A stretch of 39,544 nt of DNA from Lachnospiraceae bacterium (lineage in GTDB: Bacteria; Bacillota; Clostridia; Lachnospirales; Lachnospiraceae): positions 1 through 39,544 of the forward strand of contig JAGBEO010000030.1 in NCBI GenBank assembly GCA_017936885.1, written 5' to 3'. Below are positions 16,419 through 35,652 of this stretch, piece after piece. The notes beneath the pieces are model-generated. The model worked only from the letters and a program-made list of their open reading frames with translations, ran no database searches and was not told the DNA's origin. The first letter of the stretch is position 1. The number at the start of each line of letters is the position of its first letter. The translations under genes and the position numbers were made by a program.

Positions 16419-18110
16419 GTGAAAAGCTTTAAAAACTATTTAAAAAATGCAACAGTGAAGAAAAAAATTCTAACAGCGCTGGTATCCATAATGGTTTGTC
16501 TGATTATTTTGGTTGTGTATGGCATCGTGTCTACGATGACACTGGTGGGGCAGATAGACAGTTTCTATGAGAAACCTTATCAGAACAGCAAACTACAGCT
16601 TGAGATTCGTAAGGATGTCAACAGTCTGTTGAAAAATGTACTCTGGGCGGCAGCAACGGAGGATCAGACGCTGAAGGCACAGTATTTGGAGGAGGCGCAG
16701 GCAGATGCGGACGGTATCTATGAATGCTATGAGATGCTGGAGCAAAGCTTTGACGATAAGGAACTGCTGGAAAGCCTGGGCGTTGCGCTGGAGGAAGAAG
16801 CGCTTGCCAGAAAAGAAGTTCTGGCGATGGCATCTGCCAATGATCCGGGAACATTAGATTATTTTAACAATGTCTATAACGCAGAGGCAGAGGATGTTAT
16901 TACGGCGATGAGGTCTGTTGCAGAGACGGCAGACAACAATGCGCTGAAGGCCTACAAGCTTGCATCCACGATTGGTGTTGGTGCGCTGATTATTATGATT
17001 CTGGTCGGTCTTGTTGCGCTGGTTATAGTTATGTTTTATCTAAAGACGCTCGTACAGGTCATTACAGAGCCTATCAAGGAGTTGAAGGAAGTATCCGAGA
17101 AGCTGGCGCAGGGCGATTTGGATATTGCCATTGAATATGATTCGGCGGACGAGCTGGGCGATTTGGTAAGAAGCTTAAAGAAGGTAGTGGGTCTGTTGGG
17201 AGAAATTATTCCCGATATTGATTACTGCTTAAGAGAACTGGCAGCCGGTAATTTTACGGTTACCAGCAGAAATAAAGAGGCTTATGTGGGCTGTTATACG
17301 CCGCTTTTATCCGCTATGCAGGAGATCAAGGGAAGACTGAGCGGTACGTTGGGAGAGATTCTGATTGCGTCAAGTCAGGTGCGTGCGGGAGCACAGAATA
17401 TGGCAGAGGGTGCCCAGGATCTTGCGGAAGGCGCCACCAATCAGGCAAGTGCGGTAGAAGAGTTGAATGCTACGATCAATGCATTGACGGATCAGATAGA
17501 ATTAAATGCAAAGAAGACTGCCGAAGCAAGCAAACAGGCGAAACTGGTGGGTGATCAGGCGCAGAGCAGCCAGCAGTATATTCTTAAGGTGAACAGTGCT
17601 ATGGCGAACATCAGTGAAGCGTCCAGACAGATTGCGGAAATCAGCAGCAGTATTGAAAGTATTGCGTCCCAAACCAATCTTTTATCCTTGAATGCTGCTA
17701 TTGAAGCTGCAAGAGCAGGTGAGGCGGGTCGCGGCTTTGCAGTTGTTGCGGATGAAATCCGTACGCTTGCAGCACAGAGCGCGGAGGCAGCAGTAAATAC
17801 CCATCAGTTGATTGACAACGCCTTGAAGGAAGTGGATAACGGAAGTGAGATTGTGGACAGTACAGCAGCCGCTCTGGCAGAGGTTATTCAGAAGATTCAG
17901 GAAATTGTAGAGGCAGCAAATGAGGTAAATCAGGCATGTGAGCAGCAGGCAGAAGCAGCAATGGAGGTCAACAGTGGTATCGAACAGATTTCCATGTCGG
18001 TTCAGAATACATCTGCAACCGCCGAAGAAAGTTCTGCAACAAGTGAGGAGCTGTTTGCACAGTCTGAAACACTGAATTCTTTAGTGAGTCAGTTTACTCT
18101 GCAGAAATAG
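16419..18110 (+). CDS. Methyl-accepting chemotaxis protein
   Basis: 563 residues. Transmembrane helices at about 17-40 and 183-208 enclose a roughly 140-residue helical sensor of the four-helix-bundle (4HB_MCP) kind. HAMP spans about 210-262, with a second HAMP-like stretch after it ([16 protein letters not shown]). The signalling domain carries the conserved hairpin tip around 420-446 ([20 protein letters not shown] then [12 protein letters not shown]). The C-terminus ends in SQFTLQK with no CheR-binding pentapeptide. The start is GTG 16419 with GGAGGGGG upstream. It lies directly after the ChvE-MmsAB operon but has its own promoter. A four-helix sensor can read a sugar-bound binding protein, as Tar and Trg do, so response to ChvE or the XylF-like protein is plausible but unproven. 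Confidence 0.93.
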
Positions 18111-22046: not shown

Positions 22047-22087
22047 GTATAAATAGTAGTACAATAGTACCAGAAATGAGGTTGGTT

Positions 22088-23839
22088 ATGACACACGAAG
22101 AGAGAGCAAATGCATTATTAAAACAGAATTATCATTGTTCCCAGGCATTGTTTGGGGCATATGCCAATGATCTGGGAATGGAACTGAAAACTACGATGAA
22201 GCTCAGTACCTGCTTCGGCAGCGGCATGCGTCAGGGGGATGTCTGCGGATGTGTGACTGCGTCTATGATGATCTTGGGCATGATTTTCGGATTCTATGAT
22301 CCGCAGGATCAGGAGCAGGAAATACTTGGCAACAAGAAGACAGATGAGTTTATTAAGCTTTTTAAAGAGCGTATGGGCGGCGTTATGCACTGCCGGGATA
22401 TTTTAGGGGTAGATATTTCTGAACCGGACGGCATGGCGAAGTTCCGGCAGGAAGGACTTAAATTCAAAATTTGTCCCAAGGCACTGCATGCCAGCGTTGA
22501 AATTCTGGATGATATGCTGCAGGAATATCAGGCAAAGCAGCAGGATGGCGGTCTGGATAGGATAGAGCTTCCTAAAGAGGAGGAACTGCAAAGTGCTTTG
22601 CGCAGAGTCCATAAACTGAACAGATTCCGCAGAAATGTACAGAGTCTGATCCATGAGACAGACAAAGAGATCGTATTTATTCAGTTTGATTTGAGAAGAT
22701 TCAAGGTTATCAATGATATTTATGGTGAGAAATTCGGTGATGAAATTCTGGATTTTATCACGGAGAAGCTTAAGGTCATCTGCAATGAAAGACAGTACTT
22801 TGTGAATCTGCGCAGTGATGTATTTATGATTGTCACAGAACATACGCAGGAGAAGGAGCTGGCTGAGTTTATAGAGCACCTGGAGACGGAGTTGGGTGAA
22901 TTGAAGCATGTTAAGCTGCAATACACCTTCGGTATCTATACGGTAGAAGATAGAGGTATGGAACTGCGGCAGATGGAAGACCGTGCCGCTATGGCCCGTA
23001 AGGCTGCCAAAGGAAATGTTATGACCAATATTGTATTCTATAAAGAGCAGTTTAAGGAACTTCTCTATGCGAGAAGATTTATAGAAGAAAATATGCAAAC
23101 GGCAATTACGGAGCGTCAGTTCCAGATGTATCTACAGCCTAAATACAGCATTAGTAACAATAGTATTGTGGGTGCGGAAGCTCTGGTACGTTGGAAACAT
23201 CCTGAGAGAGGTATGATTTATCCCAATGAATTTATACCGGTCATTGAAGAGAACGGCTTCATCAGAAATGTGGATTATTATATCTGGGGAGAAGCATGCC
23301 GCTTTGTGAAGCGGTGTATGGTGGATGGCATTGAGGCATGTCCCATCTCTGTGAATGTATCCAGAAATCATTTGCAGGGAGATGATTTTATAGAAGTTCT
23401 GGAGGATCTGATCAGACAGAGTAAGATAGAGAAGAAATATCTGGAACTGGAAATCACGGAGACCGTGAATGACCAGCAGATCAGTGAAATGTCCAACCGG
23501 TTGAAAAGGGAGGGATTTACGCTCCTGATGGATGATTTCGGAAGCGGCTACTCTTCTTTGAGTATTCTTCTTGAGACTCCTTTTGATGTGATCAAGATTG
23601 ATAAGAAATTCATGGATAATATGATGGTATCAGAGAAAGGAAAGCTGATTTTAGCCCAAGTGGTATCGATGGCAGATAAGCTGGGGCTTGGTCTTTTGGC
23701 AGAGGGCGTGGAGACGAAAGAACAGGTGGAAGTACTCCAAAGCATCGGCTGTGATACCGTGCAGGGGTACTATTATGCAAAGCCTATGCCTGCCGAGGAG
23801 TTCTATGAACTGCTGAAAAAGGACCGTGCACAGCGATAG
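22088..23839 (+). CDS. C_GCAxxG_C_C redox-type domain fused to degenerate GGDEF and intact EAL (c-di-GMP phosphodiesterase)
   Basis: 583 residues in three parts. Residues 1-145 match the C_GCAxxG_C_C family: NYHCSQALFGAYANDLG, FGSGMRQGDVCGCV, HCRDILG and ICPKAL give cysteines 17, 42, 53, 55, 102 and 129. Residues about 180-315 form a GGDEF fold whose signature is RSDVF, so it should not make c-di-GMP. Residues about 330-583 form an EAL domain with all key residues visible: EALVRW, NVSRNHLQ, ELEITETV, MDDFGSGYSS, IKIDKKF, LAEGVET and QGYYYAKP. It is therefore likely an active phosphodiesterase lowering c-di-GMP. The start is ATG 22088 with GAGG at 22078-22081; ATG 22076 would add four residues. 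The cysteine domain probably binds a metal or cofactor and could report redox state. No membrane segments are seen. Confidence 0.85.
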   Translation: MTHEERANALLKQNYHCSQALFGAYANDLGMELKTTMKLSTCFGSGMRQGDVCGCVTASMMILGMIFGFYDPQDQEQEILGNKKTDEFIKLFKERMGGVMHCRDILGVDISEPDGMAKFRQEGLKFKICPKALHASVEILDDMLQEYQAKQQDGGLDRIELPKEEELQSALRRVHKLNRFRRNVQSLIHETDKEIVFIQFDLRRFKVINDIYGEKFGDEILDFITEKLKVICNERQYFVNLRSDVFMIVTEHTQEKELAEFIEHLETELGELKHVKLQYTFGIYTVEDRGMELRQMEDRAAMARKAAKGNVMTNIVFYKEQFKELLYARRFIEENMQTAITERQFQMYLQPKYSISNNSIVGAEALVRWKHPERGMIYPNEFIPVIEENGFIRNVDYYIWGEACRFVKRCMVDGIEACPISVNVSRNHLQGDDFIEVLEDLIRQSKIEKKYLELEITETVNDQQISEMSNRLKREGFTLLMDDFGSGYSSLSILLETPFDVIKIDKKFMDNMMVSEKGKLILAQVVSMADKLGLGLLAEGVETKEQVEVLQSIGCDTVQGYYYAKPMPAEEFYELLKKDRAQR

Positions 23840-23960
23840 GAAACATATTCACAACAAAATAAATGCCTTTTACAACATCTTCCGGTGCGGAACATAGGGC
23901 AGATGCGCTATACTGATACAGAAGACAGATGCGGGAAGCATGGTAAGGAAGCGGGTGCTT

Positions 23961-24773
23961 ATGAAAATCGGAATTTGTGATGATATGTCAGAGGTAAGAG
24001 AAATGATCGCCGACCTGGTGCGGCGTAGATGTCCGGCAGAAGATATCTGTCTCTACGATGCAGGAAACAGCCTGCTTGCAGAGGAGAGCCTGCCGGATAT
24101 TTTATTTATGGATATTCAGATGCCCGGTATCAACGGCATGGAAACTGCCAAAATGCTGCGGGAACGTAAACGGCAGATCTGTATTATATTTGTGACGGTA
24201 ATGTCAGATATGGTTTTTGAAGCCTTTGACGTGGGCGCTTTTCATTATCTGGTGAAGCCTTTTTCACAGGAGAAGTTCTATGAAGTATTGGCCAATGCGG
24301 TTAAGTGGAGCATCGAACAGCAAAAACTCATGGAACGGTATCATAATTGTCCTGTAAATGACGTGGACAGAGCCGGTCACTGGGTGCAAGCGGAAGAGAA
24401 AAGGCAGAGATGTATCGTGGTGAAGCAAGGCGGTATGAGTACCAGAGTCTTCCTGCGAGATATTATCTATGCGGAGGTATTTAACAGAAAAGTGCTTTTA
24501 CATACAATAACAGGCGATACAGAATATTACGGCAAGTTGACAGCTTTGGAGAAACAGGCAGGAGAAGCTTTTTTCAGGGTACACAGGGCGTATCTTGTGA
24601 ATATGGCATATGTGGTGCGGTATAATGCCCATGCCGTTACCCTGGAGAGAGGGCAGGCGATGATCGCTAAGCAGAAGTATGGGGAGTTTGTAAAAGCGTA
24701 TTTGAGGTTTTGTAAGCAGGAGGGGAGGAAGGAATGTACGGCTGGGATCAAATGTATGAACTGGCAGTGCTGA
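23961..24773 (+). CDS. LytTR-family response regulator (AgrA-like)
   Basis: 270 residues. The receiver domain has D7/D8, phosphoacceptor D51 in FMDIQMPG and K in LVKPFS near 99. The C-terminal LytTR DNA-binding domain shows YYGKLTALEKQ, FFRVHRAYLVNM and the basic YGEFVKAYLRF end. After it comes a short tail rich in cysteine (CKQEGRKECTAGIKC...), which lies entirely in the overlap with the kinase gene. ATG 23961 is preferred because AAGGAAG lies about ten bases upstream and the protein then starts MKIGICDD as relatives do; ATG 23940 would add seven residues. It overlaps the kinase gene by 40 bases. No AgrB/AgrD-like peptide genes are visible nearby, so the signal is unknown. Confidence 0.9.
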   Translation: MKIGICDDMSEVREMIADLVRRRCPAEDICLYDAGNSLLAEESLPDILFMDIQMPGINGMETAKMLRERKRQICIIFVTVMSDMVFEAFDVGAFHYLVKPFSQEKFYEVLANAVKWSIEQQKLMERYHNCPVNDVDRAGHWVQAEEKRQRCIVVKQGGMSTRVFLRDIIYAEVFNRKVLLHTITGDTEYYGKLTALEKQAGEAFFRVHRAYLVNMAYVVRYNAHAVTLERGQAMIAKQKYGEFVKAYLRFCKQEGRKECTAGIKCMNWQC

Positions 24774-26137
24774 TCTATAGTATCTGTATGGATCTGATTT
24801 CGGCAACCGCTTATGGATATTGGATAAAGGATTTTGTGAAGAGCCGGAAACTGGCATGGATTACGGGCGTTATATATATGATCCCTATGATGCCGTCCTA
24901 CTATACGCCTGCCGAAGAATCTTTATTTCCAGTCAGCGGTCTGAGTATCTTTCTGGGATTATCGGCGATTTGCTTTCTGGACAGGAGACGGTATTTGCAG
25001 AAGCTTTTTCTGGCGGTGACTTTTTTCTCTGTCAGGTGGTTTGCCTTTCGGATCGAAAGCTGTATCGGTGTGGTGCTGGGCAGACTGTCCACGTATTACC
25101 CGGGGTATTGGGAGAGTGAATGTACCGTATATATTTTATTTGTAATAACAAGCGTTATAGAAGTGGCACTGGGAGCTGTTTTGCTGTTTGGTGCGGTTAG
25201 ATGGATGAAAAGGGCATATCGCTATAAACAGGAAGAACTGCAGCTTCGGGAGTTCGTGCTGATGTCGATGCCTTCTGCGGCAGGACTGATGGCGTATATA
25301 GTGTATCGGTATATGGATAAGCTCTATGAGGCTACCGGAAACAGCACCTATGATGCACCGCTTAGTTATCATTGGTTTAACATTCTGTTTTATCTGACGA
25401 TGTACATATCGGTTGTCAGTGTGATTGTTCTTTTCCAGAATATTAAGGAAAAAAAGCAGGAAGAGAAGCAAAATGAGCTGTTGGCGGGACAGATGGAGGA
25501 TATGAAACATCATATCAGCCGGATGGAAGCGCTGTACCGGGAGATCCGCAGCATGAAGCATGATATGGGCAATCATGTACAAGTGCTGGAAAAACTGTCT
25601 TTTCAGGTGGCTAAAAAGGATGAACAGGAGCAGATCAGGGAAGAAATGCAGGAATATGTCAGTGCGCTGAAGCGGCAGTACAGCCACGTGACGGAGGAAA
25701 TCCGTACCGGGAATCCGGTTACGGACGTGATTCTGATGGAAAAGCAGAGGGAGGCGGAAGCTAAAGGGATAGTTTTTACCTGTGATTTTCGGTATCCCCA
25801 AACAGGGGCGGTGGATGCTTTCGATCTCAGTATCATTCTGAACAATGCTCTGGAAAATGCCATAGAGGCGGCGGAGAAGTGGCAAAGCTGCGCAGGGTAT
25901 GTTAGAATCAGAAGTTATATGCGTAAGAATGCTTACATGATAGAGGTAGCTAATAATTTTACCGATAAAATAACGATTGATATGGAAACAAATCTGCCTT
26001 ATACCACGAAAGATCATAAGGAAAGCCACGGTTACGGATTGCGCAATATCCGTGAGGTTGCCCGGAAATATTATGGAGAGATTGATATTGAGGCAACGGG
26101 GGAGGAATTTTGCCTGAGTGTGATGCTGAGCGTATAG
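24734..26137 (+). CDS. GHKL sensor histidine kinase (AgrC-like)
   Basis: 467 residues. Six or so membrane helices fill residues 10-235. A coiled linker (about 237-275) leads to the phosphorylation motif SMKHDMGNH with H276, the variant typical of AgrC/NatK/CitA-like kinases. The GHKL ATPase has the N box ILNNALENAIEAAE around 368-381 and a G box GYGLRNIREVARKYYG near 435-450. A multi-helix membrane sensor suits detection of a peptide or a membrane cue. GGGGAGG precedes ATG 24734, which lies inside the regulator gene, so the pair is co-translated. About 195 bases without a gene follow; they hold an imperfect hairpin (CAGATGTA 26140-26147 with TACATCTG 26176-26183) that lacks a T-tract. Confidence 0.9.
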   Translation: MYGWDQMYELAVLIYSICMDLISATAYGYWIKDFVKSRKLAWITGVIYMIPMMPSYYTPAEESLFPVSGLSIFLGLSAICFLDRRRYLQKLFLAVTFFSVRWFAFRIESCIGVVLGRLSTYYPGYWESECTVYILFVITSVIEVALGAVLLFGAVRWMKRAYRYKQEELQLREFVLMSMPSAAGLMAYIVYRYMDKLYEATGNSTYDAPLSYHWFNILFYLTMYISVVSVIVLFQNIKEKKQEEKQNELLAGQMEDMKHHISRMEALYREIRSMKHDMGNHVQVLEKLSFQVAKKDEQEQIREEMQEYVSALKRQYSHVTEEIRTGNPVTDVILMEKQREAEAKGIVFTCDFRYPQTGAVDAFDLSIILNNALENAIEAAEKWQSCAGYVRIRSYMRKNAYMIEVANNFTDKITIDMETNLPYTTKDHKESHGYGLRNIREVARKYYGEIDIEATGEEFCLSVMLSV

Positions 26138-27365: not shown

Positions 27366-27474
27366 AAATTCATCCCATATTATTTCAACAGCATAGCAAA
27401 TGAGAAAGAGCAGATGAGAAAATGCCTGTGAAGAATTTATATTGTGGCAGACTGCTCTGACATGGAGGTTTAGG

Positions 27475-28938
27475 ATGAAAATAGTTAAGAATATCGTGTT
27501 ATGGGTGCTGTCCGCTTTTTTATTGCTTATGGCGCTTGTGCTTTTTACTGACCGCTTTTTAAGCGGCTTTTTGATGTTGGCTGCGGTGCTGCTGTGCAAT
27601 CCGCTGGTGTTAAGCCTGATTGCAAAGCGTGGTAAGCGTGTGAAAAAGAAGATATGCATACCGGGTGTTATTATATTGTTTTTGGCAGCAATTATGACGA
27701 TGCCGTCTTCAAACCAAGGGGCAACAGAGTCTGTGGCTGCGGAAGCTGCCTCCAATACTGCCAAAATGGAAGAGGCTGATGCTGCAAAGACAGGGGAAAC
27801 ATCCGAACTGATGGTACATTTCATGGATATCGGGCAGGGAGATGCCGCACTGATTGCATGTGACGGGGAATACATGCTGATCGACGCAGGGGATAACGAC
27901 AAGGGTACTGCGGTACAGAATTACCTGACGAAGCAGGGAGTCAGCAAACTGAAATATGTGATTGGCACCCATCCCGATGCGGATCATATCGGCGGTCTGG
28001 ATGTTATCTTATATAAATTTGATTGTGAAACGATTATGATGCCGGATATTACCAACGATACGGCAACCTATCGGGATGTCATTGACACGATGGACGCCAA
28101 AGGATACCGGAATACGCTGCCCCGGGTGGGGGATACCTATACCTTGGGCGGGGCGGAATTTACGATTCTTGGACCGCGGAAGACATATGGTGATACGAAT
28201 AACAGTTCTATTGTACTGCGTCTGGTTCATGGAGAGAATAGCTTCCTGTTTGCAGGGGACGCAGAGGAAGAAGCAGAGACGGATATTCTAAACGGGGATA
28301 TCATGGTGGATGCGGATGTGTTGAAGGTAGGACATCACGGAAGCCGTACGGCTTCTTCCAAGGCATTTTTGCAGGCAGTTTCCCCTACATATGCGGTGAT
28401 TAGCTGTGCAGAGGACAACAGCTACGGACATCCTCATGCAGAGACGCTCAACAATTTGCGAGCTATGGGAGTACAGGTGTTCCGTACCGATGAACAGGGA
28501 ACAATTGTGGCAACCTCGGACGGACAGCAGTTAGAATGGAACTGTGCGCCGTCAGAAACCTGGAAAGCAGGAGAGAGTACCCAGAGTGCGGATCATAAGA
28601 CAAGTGCCGCGGACGGGGCAGGACAAAATGAGGCAGCAGGTAGCGATACAGCGGCAGAAAGTGCCGCCATGGAACAGACGGCAACGCAGCCTGACGAAAC
28701 GGCACAAAATGAGGAGAAGCAGGAACAGCTTACCGGCGCAGGAGGGGGGAACGGCAGTAACTTTGAAACCGGAGAAGCGCCTGTCGGAGCCAATTATATC
28801 GGCAACAAGAGAAACGGCAAGCTGCACAGAGCATCCTGTCATACCTTGCCAAAAGCAGAAAATCAAGCTATCTTTAGTACCAGAGAGGAAGCCGTAGCCG
28901 CCGGGTACGATGATCCTTGCGGCAATTGTAAGCCGTAA
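27475..28938 (+). CDS. Membrane-anchored ComEC/Rec2-type MBL-fold hydrolase with Ada-like zinc-binding C-terminal domain
   Basis: 487 residues. Hydrophobic segments at about 7-25, 28-48 and 62-78 anchor the protein. A metallo-beta-lactamase domain follows from about 112 with MDIGQGDAAL, LIDAGDND, THPDADH (165-171), LFAGDAEEEAE and LKVGHHGSRTAS, which together form the metal site seen in the nuclease-like domain of ComEC. A low-complexity linker of about 80 residues leads to a 45-residue tail with RASCHTLP and DPCGNCKP, a pattern of Ada-type zinc-binding domains attached to extracellular DNA-acting proteins. A role on extracellular DNA, in competence or nutrient use, is inferred. The ComEC transport channel itself is absent. 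ATG 27475 has GGAGG at 27464-27468. Confidence 0.88.
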   Translation: MKIVKNIVLWVLSAFLLLMALVLFTDRFLSGFLMLAAVLLCNPLVLSLIAKRGKRVKKKICIPGVIILFLAAIMTMPSSNQGATESVAAEAASNTAKMEEADAAKTGETSELMVHFMDIGQGDAALIACDGEYMLIDAGDNDKGTAVQNYLTKQGVSKLKYVIGTHPDADHIGGLDVILYKFDCETIMMPDITNDTATYRDVIDTMDAKGYRNTLPRVGDTYTLGGAEFTILGPRKTYGDTNNSSIVLRLVHGENSFLFAGDAEEEAETDILNGDIMVDADVLKVGHHGSRTASSKAFLQAVSPTYAVISCAEDNSYGHPHAETLNNLRAMGVQVFRTDEQGTIVATSDGQQLEWNCAPSETWKAGESTQSADHKTSAADGAGQNEAAGSDTAAESAAMEQTATQPDETAQNEEKQEQLTGAGGGNGSNFETGEAPVGANYIGNKRNGKLHRASCHTLPKAENQAIFSTREEAVAAGYDDPCGNCKP

Positions 28939-33782: not shown

Positions 33783-33959
33783 ATGATGATACCTAACGAT
33801 CCTGTTATGTTATTGAGTTTTGTAAATTTGAAACTTCGCGATTTTTACGGAAGCCTTGCGGTACTTTGTGATGATCTGGATGTGGATCAGACAGAAATTG
33901 TGTCTAAATTAGCGAAGATTGATTATCATTATGACGAGGAGAAAAATCAATTTGTCTGA
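33783..33959 (+). CDS. DUF4250 domain-containing small protein
   Basis: 58 residues covering the whole DUF4250 family pattern: IPNDPVMLLSFVNLKLRDFY, then LCDDLDVDQTEIVSKLAKI and the end YDEEKNQFV. It is small, acidic and soluble, with a helix-turn-helix-like predicted layout, and its function is unknown. AAGGGAG at 33769-33775 fits ATG 33783 best; ATGs at 33777 and 33786 are alternatives. Its last eight bases overlap the start of the ASKHA gene, so expression is coupled. The family is widespread in Clostridia and Bacteroides-type gut bacteria. Confidence 0.85.
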   Translation: MMIPNDPVMLLSFVNLKLRDFYGSLAVLCDDLDVDQTEIVSKLAKIDYHYDEEKNQFV

Positions 33960-35652
33960 TAAAATTAAGGTAACAGTAGTTACTGAGTATAACGGAAAAT
34001 TGAATAACAGTGTCAACGGGCAGACAAAGGATTTTAACGGACCCTCTGTTATTGTGACACATGATTCTTCTGTGACACTTATGTCAACTTTGCTGAAAAA
34101 TGGTCTGATCAGCGGCAGTTTTTGCGGCGGCAGAGGGGATTGCGGAAGATGCAAAATCCAATATATCAAAGGTGTTACCATACCTACACCGTTGGAAAGA
34201 AGCGTGATGGAGCCGGAAGAACTCAGACAGGGGTATCGCCTGGCATGTCTTTCGCGACCAAAAGACGACTGTGTCATTCGATTGGCTTTGGTAGAAGATG
34301 AGCAAGTGGCAATTGTTTCTGAAATGATAGATTTGTCGGGAAATAATGACCGAATGAGTCAAGAAAAAGAATGCTCTGAAAATAGAAAAGCATATGATAT
34401 AGAATCTGAGAAAATGCAAACTGACGATGTAGAGTCAGACAGAACTAATCAAAAGTGTTACGTCATTGCAGTGGATCTGGGAACGACTACCATTGCCATG
34501 CAGCTTTGTGATCTGATGACCGGAGCGGTGGTTGACACCTATTGCGAGATGAATCCCCAGAGAAGTTATGGAACAGATGTGCTGTCCAGAATCCAAGCCT
34601 CCTGTGAGGGACACAAAGAAACTCTGCGAAAGATGGTATGGGATGTGCTGGAGCGCGGAATGGTGAAGTTTGCGGAGTATAAGGAAGAAACGCTGTCTGA
34701 TACGGACGATAAAGTAACTGGTGTTATGGAAAAAGTCTGTAAAATAGTCTGTATGTGTATCGCCGGAAATACGACTATGGAGCACCTTTTGCTGGGGTAT
34801 GACGTATCTTCTCTCGGTTTCAGTCCCTTTACGCCGGTGGAGATCGGTTTACAGGAAATCAGATATCCCGCATGGGATATGCCCGTCTATATCGCGCCGG
34901 GAATCAGTACCTTTGTGGGCGGTGATATCGTGACCGGATTGTATGTGCTTAATATGCTGGGAGGATGCCGAGCGGGCCTGCCGGAAGAATCCTCAGACGG
35001 GTTATCGGAAGAATCTGGGAGAAGCGAAAACGTCCGCCTTTTTATCGATTTAGGCACCAATGGAGAGATGGCGATCACGGACGGTCGCCGTATGATTGTG
35101 ACAGCTACCGCAGCGGGTCCGGCTTTTGAAGGCGGTGCGGGGGCACAGGTAATCGGTACGGATATGATTGCGGTTACGGCGTCTTTATTGGAGAGAGGAA
35201 TATTGGATGAGACCGGACTGTTAGCAGATCCTTATTTTGAAACAGGCGTTACGATTCCATGGAAACAAGTGTCTCTTTCTATAGAAAATAAAGATATCCG
35301 CAATCTGCAGCTTGCCAAGGCGGCGGTGCGCGCCGGAGTGGAGATTCTGTGGGAAACGTTAGGCACGCCGGTTGTCGATCAGGTATATCTGGCAGGCGGC
35401 TTTGGGTATTATCTGGATGTGGAAGCAGCTTTTCAGATCGGGTTGTTGCCGGAGAGCCTGCGGGGGAAGGTACAGGCTGTGGGAAACACCTCTTTGGCGG
35501 GTGCCTGCAAACTGGCGCGCGATTTGTACAGAAAATGCACCGATCCAAAGGCGCTGGAAGAACGGCTTTCTTCTATAGAGAGTATGAACCTTGCGAAGCA
35601 GGAAGGATTTGAAAGTCTGTATCTGCGCTATATGAATTTATGCCCCAATTAA
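33952..35652 (+). CDS. 2Fe-2S ferredoxin/ASKHA protein (RACE-like reductive activator, DUF4445)
   Basis: 566 residues. The N-terminal ferredoxin-like domain carries Cys58, Cys64 and Cys67 (FCGGRGDCGRC) and Cys99 (RLACLS), the ligand set of a plant-type 2Fe-2S cluster. A charged, variable linker (about 120-165) follows. The ASKHA ATPase domain begins with VIAVDLGTTTIA (D175) and continues with AGNTTMEHLLLG, LFIDLGTNGEMAI and AGPAFEGGAGA. Known relatives (RamA, RACE proteins) reduce inactive Co(II) corrinoid proteins at the cost of ATP. No corrinoid protein or methyltransferase gene is nearby, so its client lies elsewhere. Start TTG 33952 is chosen because GAGGAG lies at 33936-33941; ATG 33931 has no ribosome site. 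Confidence 0.85.
   Translation: MSDKIKVTVVTEYNGKLNNSVNGQTKDFNGPSVIVTHDSSVTLMSTLLKNGLISGSFCGGRGDCGRCKIQYIKGVTIPTPLERSVMEPEELRQGYRLACLSRPKDDCVIRLALVEDEQVAIVSEMIDLSGNNDRMSQEKECSENRKAYDIESEKMQTDDVESDRTNQKCYVIAVDLGTTTIAMQLCDLMTGAVVDTYCEMNPQRSYGTDVLSRIQASCEGHKETLRKMVWDVLERGMVKFAEYKEETLSDTDDKVTGVMEKVCKIVCMCIAGNTTMEHLLLGYDVSSLGFSPFTPVEIGLQEIRYPAWDMPVYIAPGISTFVGGDIVTGLYVLNMLGGCRAGLPEESSDGLSEESGRSENVRLFIDLGTNGEMAITDGRRMIVTATAAGPAFEGGAGAQVIGTDMIAVTASLLERGILDETGLLADPYFETGVTIPWKQVSLSIENKDIRNLQLAKAAVRAGVEILWETLGTPVVDQVYLAGGFGYYLDVEAAFQIGLLPESLRGKVQAVGNTSLAGACKLARDLYRKCTDPKALEERLSSIESMNLAKQEGFESLYLRYMNLCPN

Follow-up and report, generated by a model that had tools for sequence, protein, structure and literature searches.

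EAL enzymes that carry a sensory domain at the front are already known, and several phosphodiesterases gated by redox state or oxygen (PdeC, Bhr-HD-GYP, RmcA, CdgF and PdeO) are tabulated in a census review of c-di-GMP sensing, in rows naming sensory domains other than C_GCAxxG_C_C (PMC8846402). The E. coli PdeC, a CSS-motif EAL phosphodiesterase for which the accessible part of the same review reports that disulfide control has been shown (PMC8846402), resembles the protein described here in pairing an EAL domain with a cysteine-bearing input. However, the two cysteines of PdeC are periplasmic, sitting in the loop that joins two membrane helices, whereas the present protein has six, located in an unrelated Pfam domain, and has no clear membrane anchor; no CSS-type domain is found among its Pfam matches. 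Bhr-HD-GYP of Ferrovum and DosP/PdeO of E. coli, as described in the accessible text, likewise have a metal-cofactor domain preceding a c-di-GMP phosphodiesterase, but the former combines a hemerythrin di-iron domain with HD-GYP and the latter carries a heme PAS domain, and neither has a C_GCAxxG_C_C domain. A cyclase-inactive GGDEF domain in front of an active EAL domain, as seen here, is also described for Caulobacter CC3396, P. aeruginosa RbdA and RmcA, and Shewanella PdeB in the accessible part of PMC9061725, where GTP binding is reported for these four and PdeB is noted to keep the GTP-binding residues, whereas in the present protein the corresponding loop reads RSDVF and binding of GTP is hypothetical.

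The C_GCAxxG_C_C family itself (PF09719/TIGR01909) consists mostly of small stand-alone proteins. The present protein is like them in matching the family profile over the whole domain and in having the four family cysteines, but differs in being fused to GGDEF and EAL domains, in its CGCxxA motif, in the fixed Cys42 and Cys55, and in its placement on a separate branch with 100/100 support. In the accessible parts of the literature, selenoprotein forms of PF09719 are listed in review tables (PMC13188914, PMC9312934), which would suit a redox role of its thiols, and one C_GCAxxG_C_C protein is remarked on as possibly redox-active (PMC5640608). In similarly accessible text, the family appears in a gene table of an iron-response study, the one paper found to contain both GCAxxG and phosphodiesterase (PMC10434189), and elsewhere as a weak domain match (PMC2989971) and in a proteomic table (PMC4103992). 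Since the accessible passages that name PF09719 give it no biochemical role, any proposal of redox or metal sensing leans on the family name. The main text of the census review is silent on C_GCAxxG_C_C as an input domain (PMC8846402). The preliminary description of this locus had not recognized the architecture as a characterized one. In our literature search, with most subscription journals outside its reach, neither the family name with EAL nor GCAxxG with GGDEF was found together; domain databases may nevertheless list the architecture without comment.

The gene studied here lies in the window, i.e., the whole stretch of 39,544 nucleotides that was analyzed, and its features are collected in Table 1. 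The frame contains no internal stop, and while an alternative in-frame ATG at 22076 would extend the product to 587 residues, the start at 22088 is favored because M1-T2-H3 is invariant across 75 aligned rows and a GAGG ends six bases 5' of this ATG. Profile searches bear out the C_GCAxxG_C_C domain that had been claimed for the N-terminal region, with PF09719 scoring 79.4 bits (cut-off 27) and the NCBIfam model TIGR01909 scoring 58.9 bits (cut-off 47.4), and the GGDEF and EAL domains that follow score 58.4 bits (cut-off 23.8) and 220.5 bits (cut-off 31.3), respectively. Sequence searches of the GGDEF-EAL part against the PDB retrieved a motility regulator (PDB identifier 4rnh) as the best match with an E-value of 8e-62, and DosP with an E-value of 4.5e-46. 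The N-terminal domain found no PDB match at E-values up to 1 when used as a single sequence, six weak and non-credible matches when used as a 20-row profile (best E-value 0.039, NrnC), and nothing credible in PHROGs (best E-value 0.064). Hydropathy averaged over 19 residues is highest at residues 52-70 (1.86) and then at residues 520-538 (1.61), the latter stretch lying within the EAL domain; the protein is likely, though not proven to be, cytosolic, and the hydrophobic stretch at 52-70 counts against certainty on this point.

Table 1. Features of the fusion gene in the window, and multi-domain PF09719 frames found in relatives
Feature	Position	Strand	Evidence
Whole gene, C_GCAxxG_C_C-type domain, degenerate GGDEF and EAL	22088..23839	+	Open frame, 583 aa; Pfam and NCBIfam matches
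GAGG, likely ribosome-binding site for the start at 22088	22078..22081	+	Sequence; all 75 aligned rows start with MTH
C_GCAxxG_C_C-type N-terminal domain, residues 15-143	22130..22516	+	PF09719, E 2.9e-22; whole-genome search returns the same stretch
Cys17, family cysteine, with invariant His16 beside it	22136..22138	+	78/78 fusions; 111/112 other domains
Cys42, extra cysteine	22211..22213	+	78/78 fusions, 19/20 in the genus set; 29/112 others
Cys53-Gly54-Cys55, CGC replacing CGA	22244..22252	+	78/78 fusions; Cys55 in 4/112 and Cys53 in 112/112 others
Cys102, family cysteine	22391..22393	+	78/78 fusions; 109/112 others
Cys129, family cysteine	22472..22474	+	78/78 fusions; 106/112 others
Variable linker, residues 144-176, of near-constant length	22517..22615	+	Least conserved part; 33 residues in 72/78 rows; median dN/dS 0.141, 16 pairs
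Degenerate GGDEF domain, residues 177-309	22616..23014	+	PF00990, E 9.4e-16
RSDVF replacing GGDEF	22811..22825	+	R 77, S 73, D 78, V 78 and F 77 of 78
EAL phosphodiesterase domain, residues 334-566	23087..23785	+	PF00563, E 2.7e-65; catalytic residues kept in 78 rows
Cys410 to Cys418, two EAL-domain cysteines typical of the fusion family	23315..23341	+	C410 78/78, C418 76/78
PF09719 multi-domain open frames in relatives	L182:141-1640, L183:1658-2656, L184:1303-2463, L185:1399-2724, L186:540-1895, L187:593-1846, L189:1609-2637, L193:1361-2194		

A scan of genome contigs with an alignment of the N-terminal domain, whose patterns were derived from fusions, found relatives encoded in 175 stretches and kept the best 80. 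All of these best 80 of 175 loci encode the fusion frame with six N-terminal cysteines, a proportion that is no measure of how often the domain is fused, as the search patterns were themselves drawn from fusions and the count covers the best 80 of 175. Within this set, 77 loci are complete with more than 500 residues, two run off their contigs and one stops at residue 289; one locus stops early at 555. That the gene is an artefact, two neighbors joined through an assembly or frame error, is refuted by these 77 of the best 80 of 175 loci, which come from separate assemblies, and we give this explanation practically no chance; isolates are included, with Lachnospiraceae bacterium 28-4 and Eubacterium sp. 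14-2 being examples among the 80 loci. The fusion is a real, conserved and specific protein. Within the genus, a match running from residue 1 to at least residue 561 is present in 20 of 37 genomes, counting the window's own; identity to the protein of the window is 62-73% in the other 19, and one of these 20 matches (L052) is interrupted by an in-frame stop close to its end. Two further genus genomes hold the fusion in pieces, matching from residue 92 (G414) or split across two contigs (G418), another (G430) matches from residue 294 only, and the remaining 14 of the 37, some of them incomplete, lack a fusion-level match. Fusion-level matches (at least 269 bits, in frames of at least 580 residues) were found in 10 of 397 genomes sampled from the family Lachnospiraceae, where the next match below them scores 150 bits in a frame of 145 residues, and in one of 398 genomes sampled from the phylum, which is the window's own. 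As far as the sampling goes, the fusion is a Lachnospiraceae protein, though the record titles of a few loci bear other names.

A tree of 130 N-terminal domains (22 fused and 108 other, four short ones of 112 having been left out) separates all fused domains from the rest by a branch that has 100/100 support, the stem of the fused group measuring 0.71 changes per column; this group was recovered in 100% of 200 bootstrap trees, with few alignment columns for the number of rows. By this tree the fused domain has a single origin. Median dN/dS values, calculated from pairs with an overall dS of 0.1-1 among the 2,628 pairs of 73 sequences, a set that excludes 8 of the 80 loci, are 0.037 for the N-terminal domain, 0.048 for GGDEF and 0.032 for EAL (17 pairs each), with the linker evolving faster (Table 1). 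These values indicate strong purifying selection on the N-terminal domain, its six cysteines included, which is what would be required of an input domain.

The cysteines of the fused domain were compared, in an alignment of 78 rows (the window and 77 loci from the best 80 of 175, three cut or truncated loci having been dropped), with those of 112 distinct other PF09719 domains, a non-random sample of mostly high-scoring matches. All six are present in each of the 78 rows, as are H3 and H16, and in the 20-row genus set the five other than C42 are present throughout. Four conserved cysteines are what we take to be expected of PF09719/TIGR01909, and the counts among the 112 domains bear this number out, nine of the ten misses at these positions being alignment gaps. 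The six cysteines that had been read as the family pattern are all there, but those belonging to the family are C17, C53, C102 and C129 alone. The family name presumably reads as CGAxxG, a motif that is common rather than strict in the comparison set, where position 55 is Ala in 93 and position 58 Gly in 103 of the 112 domains. The fused branch instead reads CGCxxA, with Cys at position 55 in 78 of 78 rows and Ala at position 58 in 75 of 78 (CGCVTA in the window), and by these counts Cys55 characterizes the branch. Because profile homology holds while the CGAxxG motif fails, the fused domain is filed as a divergent branch of PF09719 and an atypical member of the family. CGC at positions 53-55 also occurs in four other PF09719 domains (L210, L211, L219 and L231), which are spread over two or more distant regions of the tree, so a repeated origin of the motif is probable. 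Of nine PF09719 loci fetched for a selenocysteine check, five were readable, and none of these has TGA at a family cysteine.

PF09719 appears to be modular since elsewhere it shares a single frame with GNAT, NUDIX, DUF402, TrmO, PALP or Nitro_FeMo-Co domains. The partners observed in the relatives of Table 1 are PALP, GNAT (twice), NUDIX, TrmO, MarR-GNAT, DUF402 and Nitro_FeMo-Co; no EAL or GGDEF partner was seen by eye in 13 long PF09719 frames, among the matches listed, and a Pfam scan of eight such frames found neither domain. The fused protein could accordingly be conceived of as a bifunctional enzyme, in which the N-terminal domain retains a putative activity of the C_GCAxxG_C_C family, in catalysis or electron transfer, that is coupled to c-di-GMP turnover. 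Both the retention of all four family cysteines and the occurrence of PF09719 in other frames together with domains of enzymes (GNAT, NUDIX, TrmO and PALP among them) would agree with this. We nevertheless find it quite unlikely, as the changed CGAxxG motif and the long stem of 0.71 changes per column fit a loss of the parental function.

The GGDEF domain had been described as carrying a dead signature, and the alignment agrees, with RSDVF in place of the GG[D/E]EF active-site loop of active diguanylate cyclases (PF00990) and none of its residues conserved in fewer than 73 of 78 rows. No cyclase activity is expected from such a loop, and that RSDVF stays fixed rather than drifting suggests a retained non-cyclase role. 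Outside the loop, the nucleotide-site residues D201, F205, N209, D210, G213 and G217 are kept in 78 of 78 rows, K206 in 77 and D218 in 74, in agreement with DxxxFKxxND, which we take to be the GGDEF nucleotide motif. This conservation could be accommodated by an alternative in which the N-terminal domain is a docking or dimerization module whose cysteines bind a structural metal and sense nothing, the enzyme being set by GTP at the pseudo-GGDEF domain or always on; GTP control through an inactive GGDEF domain is indeed reported for related proteins in the accessible part of PMC9061725. However, the strongly altered RSDVF loop makes GTP binding uncertain, and a structural site would not easily account for cysteines arranged differently from those of the parent family, with Cys55 in 78 of 78 fusions versus 4 of 112 other domains, so we regard this alternative as somewhat unlikely.

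The EAL domain had been credited with all catalytic residues, and these are indeed present: E364, N423, E455, E458, D482, D483, K503, E539 and Q559, presumably the catalytic and metal-binding set (the E of EAL, N, E, E, DD, K, E and Q), are kept in the 78 rows, the misses being X characters (one at D483, two at K503) or a gap (one at Q559). Some GGDEF-EAL tandem proteins, such as LapD and FimX, are receptors, and the present protein could by this precedent bind c-di-GMP or pGpG without being an enzyme, but given the catalytic residues and the DDFGSG loop (of the DDFGxG type), which are kept in all 78 rows save X or gap characters, we consider a receptor highly improbable. Thirteen other EAL proteins, six from the same genome (L201 being left out) and seven from other genomes, have Cys at position 410 in one case and at position 418 in none, while the equivalents of C404 and C555 are present in 5 and 11 of them.

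The surroundings of the gene were surveyed in the best 80 of 175 loci, 71 of which have at least 2 kb of upstream sequence and nine less than 2 kb. No neighboring gene is conserved across these 80, and the commonest neighbor, GroEL-like by eye, occurs at 12 of the 80 loci, with no larger neighbor cluster. In the window, a chemoreceptor gene (16419-18110) lies directly upstream of an ABC transporter pair and is matched in 1 of the best 80 of 175 loci, and genes for a LytTR regulator and a GHKL kinase (23940-26137) lie directly downstream of the fusion gene and are matched in 1 and 4 of the 80, respectively. A functional link to the upstream ABC pair was considered and rejected, as both genes are beside the fusion, at 83-92% identity, in four loci, all from among the closest relatives of the window. 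The preliminary description mentioned chemoreceptors when suggesting a link to motility, but with neighbors that are not conserved, and with the upstream receptor found at 1 of the 80 loci, this receptor does not lend support. We infer that the gene works alone or with partners encoded elsewhere. A search for c-di-GMP-I riboswitches gave no match, its controls being silent as well. Further along the window are a metallo-beta-lactamase-fold protein (27442-28938), whose C-terminus matches the Ada metal-binding domain PF02805 with 24.6 bits against a cut-off of 23, and a RACo-like protein (33919-35652) with Fer2, Raco_middle and RACo_C_ter domains; RACo-type proteins reactivate corrinoid proteins.

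The genome of the window has eight EAL matches, this protein included, five flagellin matches and two PilZ matches. In the family sample, flagellin is found in 10 of 10 genomes with the fusion and in 203 of 387 others (213 of 397 overall), with a Fisher p-value of 0.0018 that is too small because the fusion genomes are related and kinship was left uncorrected. In the genus, all 77 genomes searched have flagellin, and yet 14 of 37, some of them incomplete, have no fusion-level match, which indicates that motility does not need the fusion. Another EAL protein encoded in this genome (G000 contig 29, about 44930-47545; L208:931-3546:+), with a frame of 872 aa, has Fer4, Fe_hyd_lg_C ([FeFe]-hydrogenase-like, PF02906, E-value 6.2e-19) and FeS domains ahead of GGDEF-EAL and is perhaps an H2- or redox-linked c-di-GMP phosphodiesterase. 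It resembles the fusion in having a metal- or redox-type input before GGDEF-EAL but differs in that the input belongs to another family, with no PF09719. Its ferredoxin and [FeFe]-hydrogenase-like domains make a redox or metal input to c-di-GMP breakdown plausible in this organism.

Based on the sequence comparisons above, we hypothesize, with a probability of roughly 0.5, that the protein acts as a c-di-GMP phosphodiesterase whose activity is controlled by an input domain based on thiols or a metal. The EAL domain would hydrolyze c-di-GMP, and the cysteines (most likely the C53-G-C55 pair together with C17, C42, C102 and C129) would form a metal or Fe-S center or a thiol-disulfide switch. A change in the state of this cysteine site could then alter the packing of the GGDEF-EAL dimer and with it the activity, and the pseudo-GGDEF domain may add a check on GTP in the manner suggested by the accessible text on CC3396, RbdA, RmcA and PdeB (PMC9061725). 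The output would be a lowering of c-di-GMP, probably favoring flagellar motility. That the reduced or metal-loaded form is the active one is a guess by analogy to PdeC and Bhr-HD-GYP, as these are presented in the accessible part of PMC8846402. More tentatively, and with a chance somewhat below even, the fused domain may represent a new class of cysteine-based sensor that feeds into c-di-GMP signaling, in which the CGC branch of an uncharacterized redox-protein family was recruited once in flagellated Lachnospiraceae to read oxidant or metal and set motility, with a GTP-reading pseudo-GGDEF domain as a second checkpoint and a possible thiol contact to Cys410 and Cys418 of the EAL domain.

No C_GCAxxG_C_C domain serving as an input was found in the literature searched, and if the domain does gate the enzyme, c-di-GMP hydrolysis would provide a simple read-out of what the C_GCAxxG_C_C cysteines bind or sense. 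The proposed control, if true, would suggest that redox state or metals govern c-di-GMP in anaerobic commensals, with motility perhaps affected as well, and could allow an anaerobe to sense exposure to oxidant or metal and set its motility.
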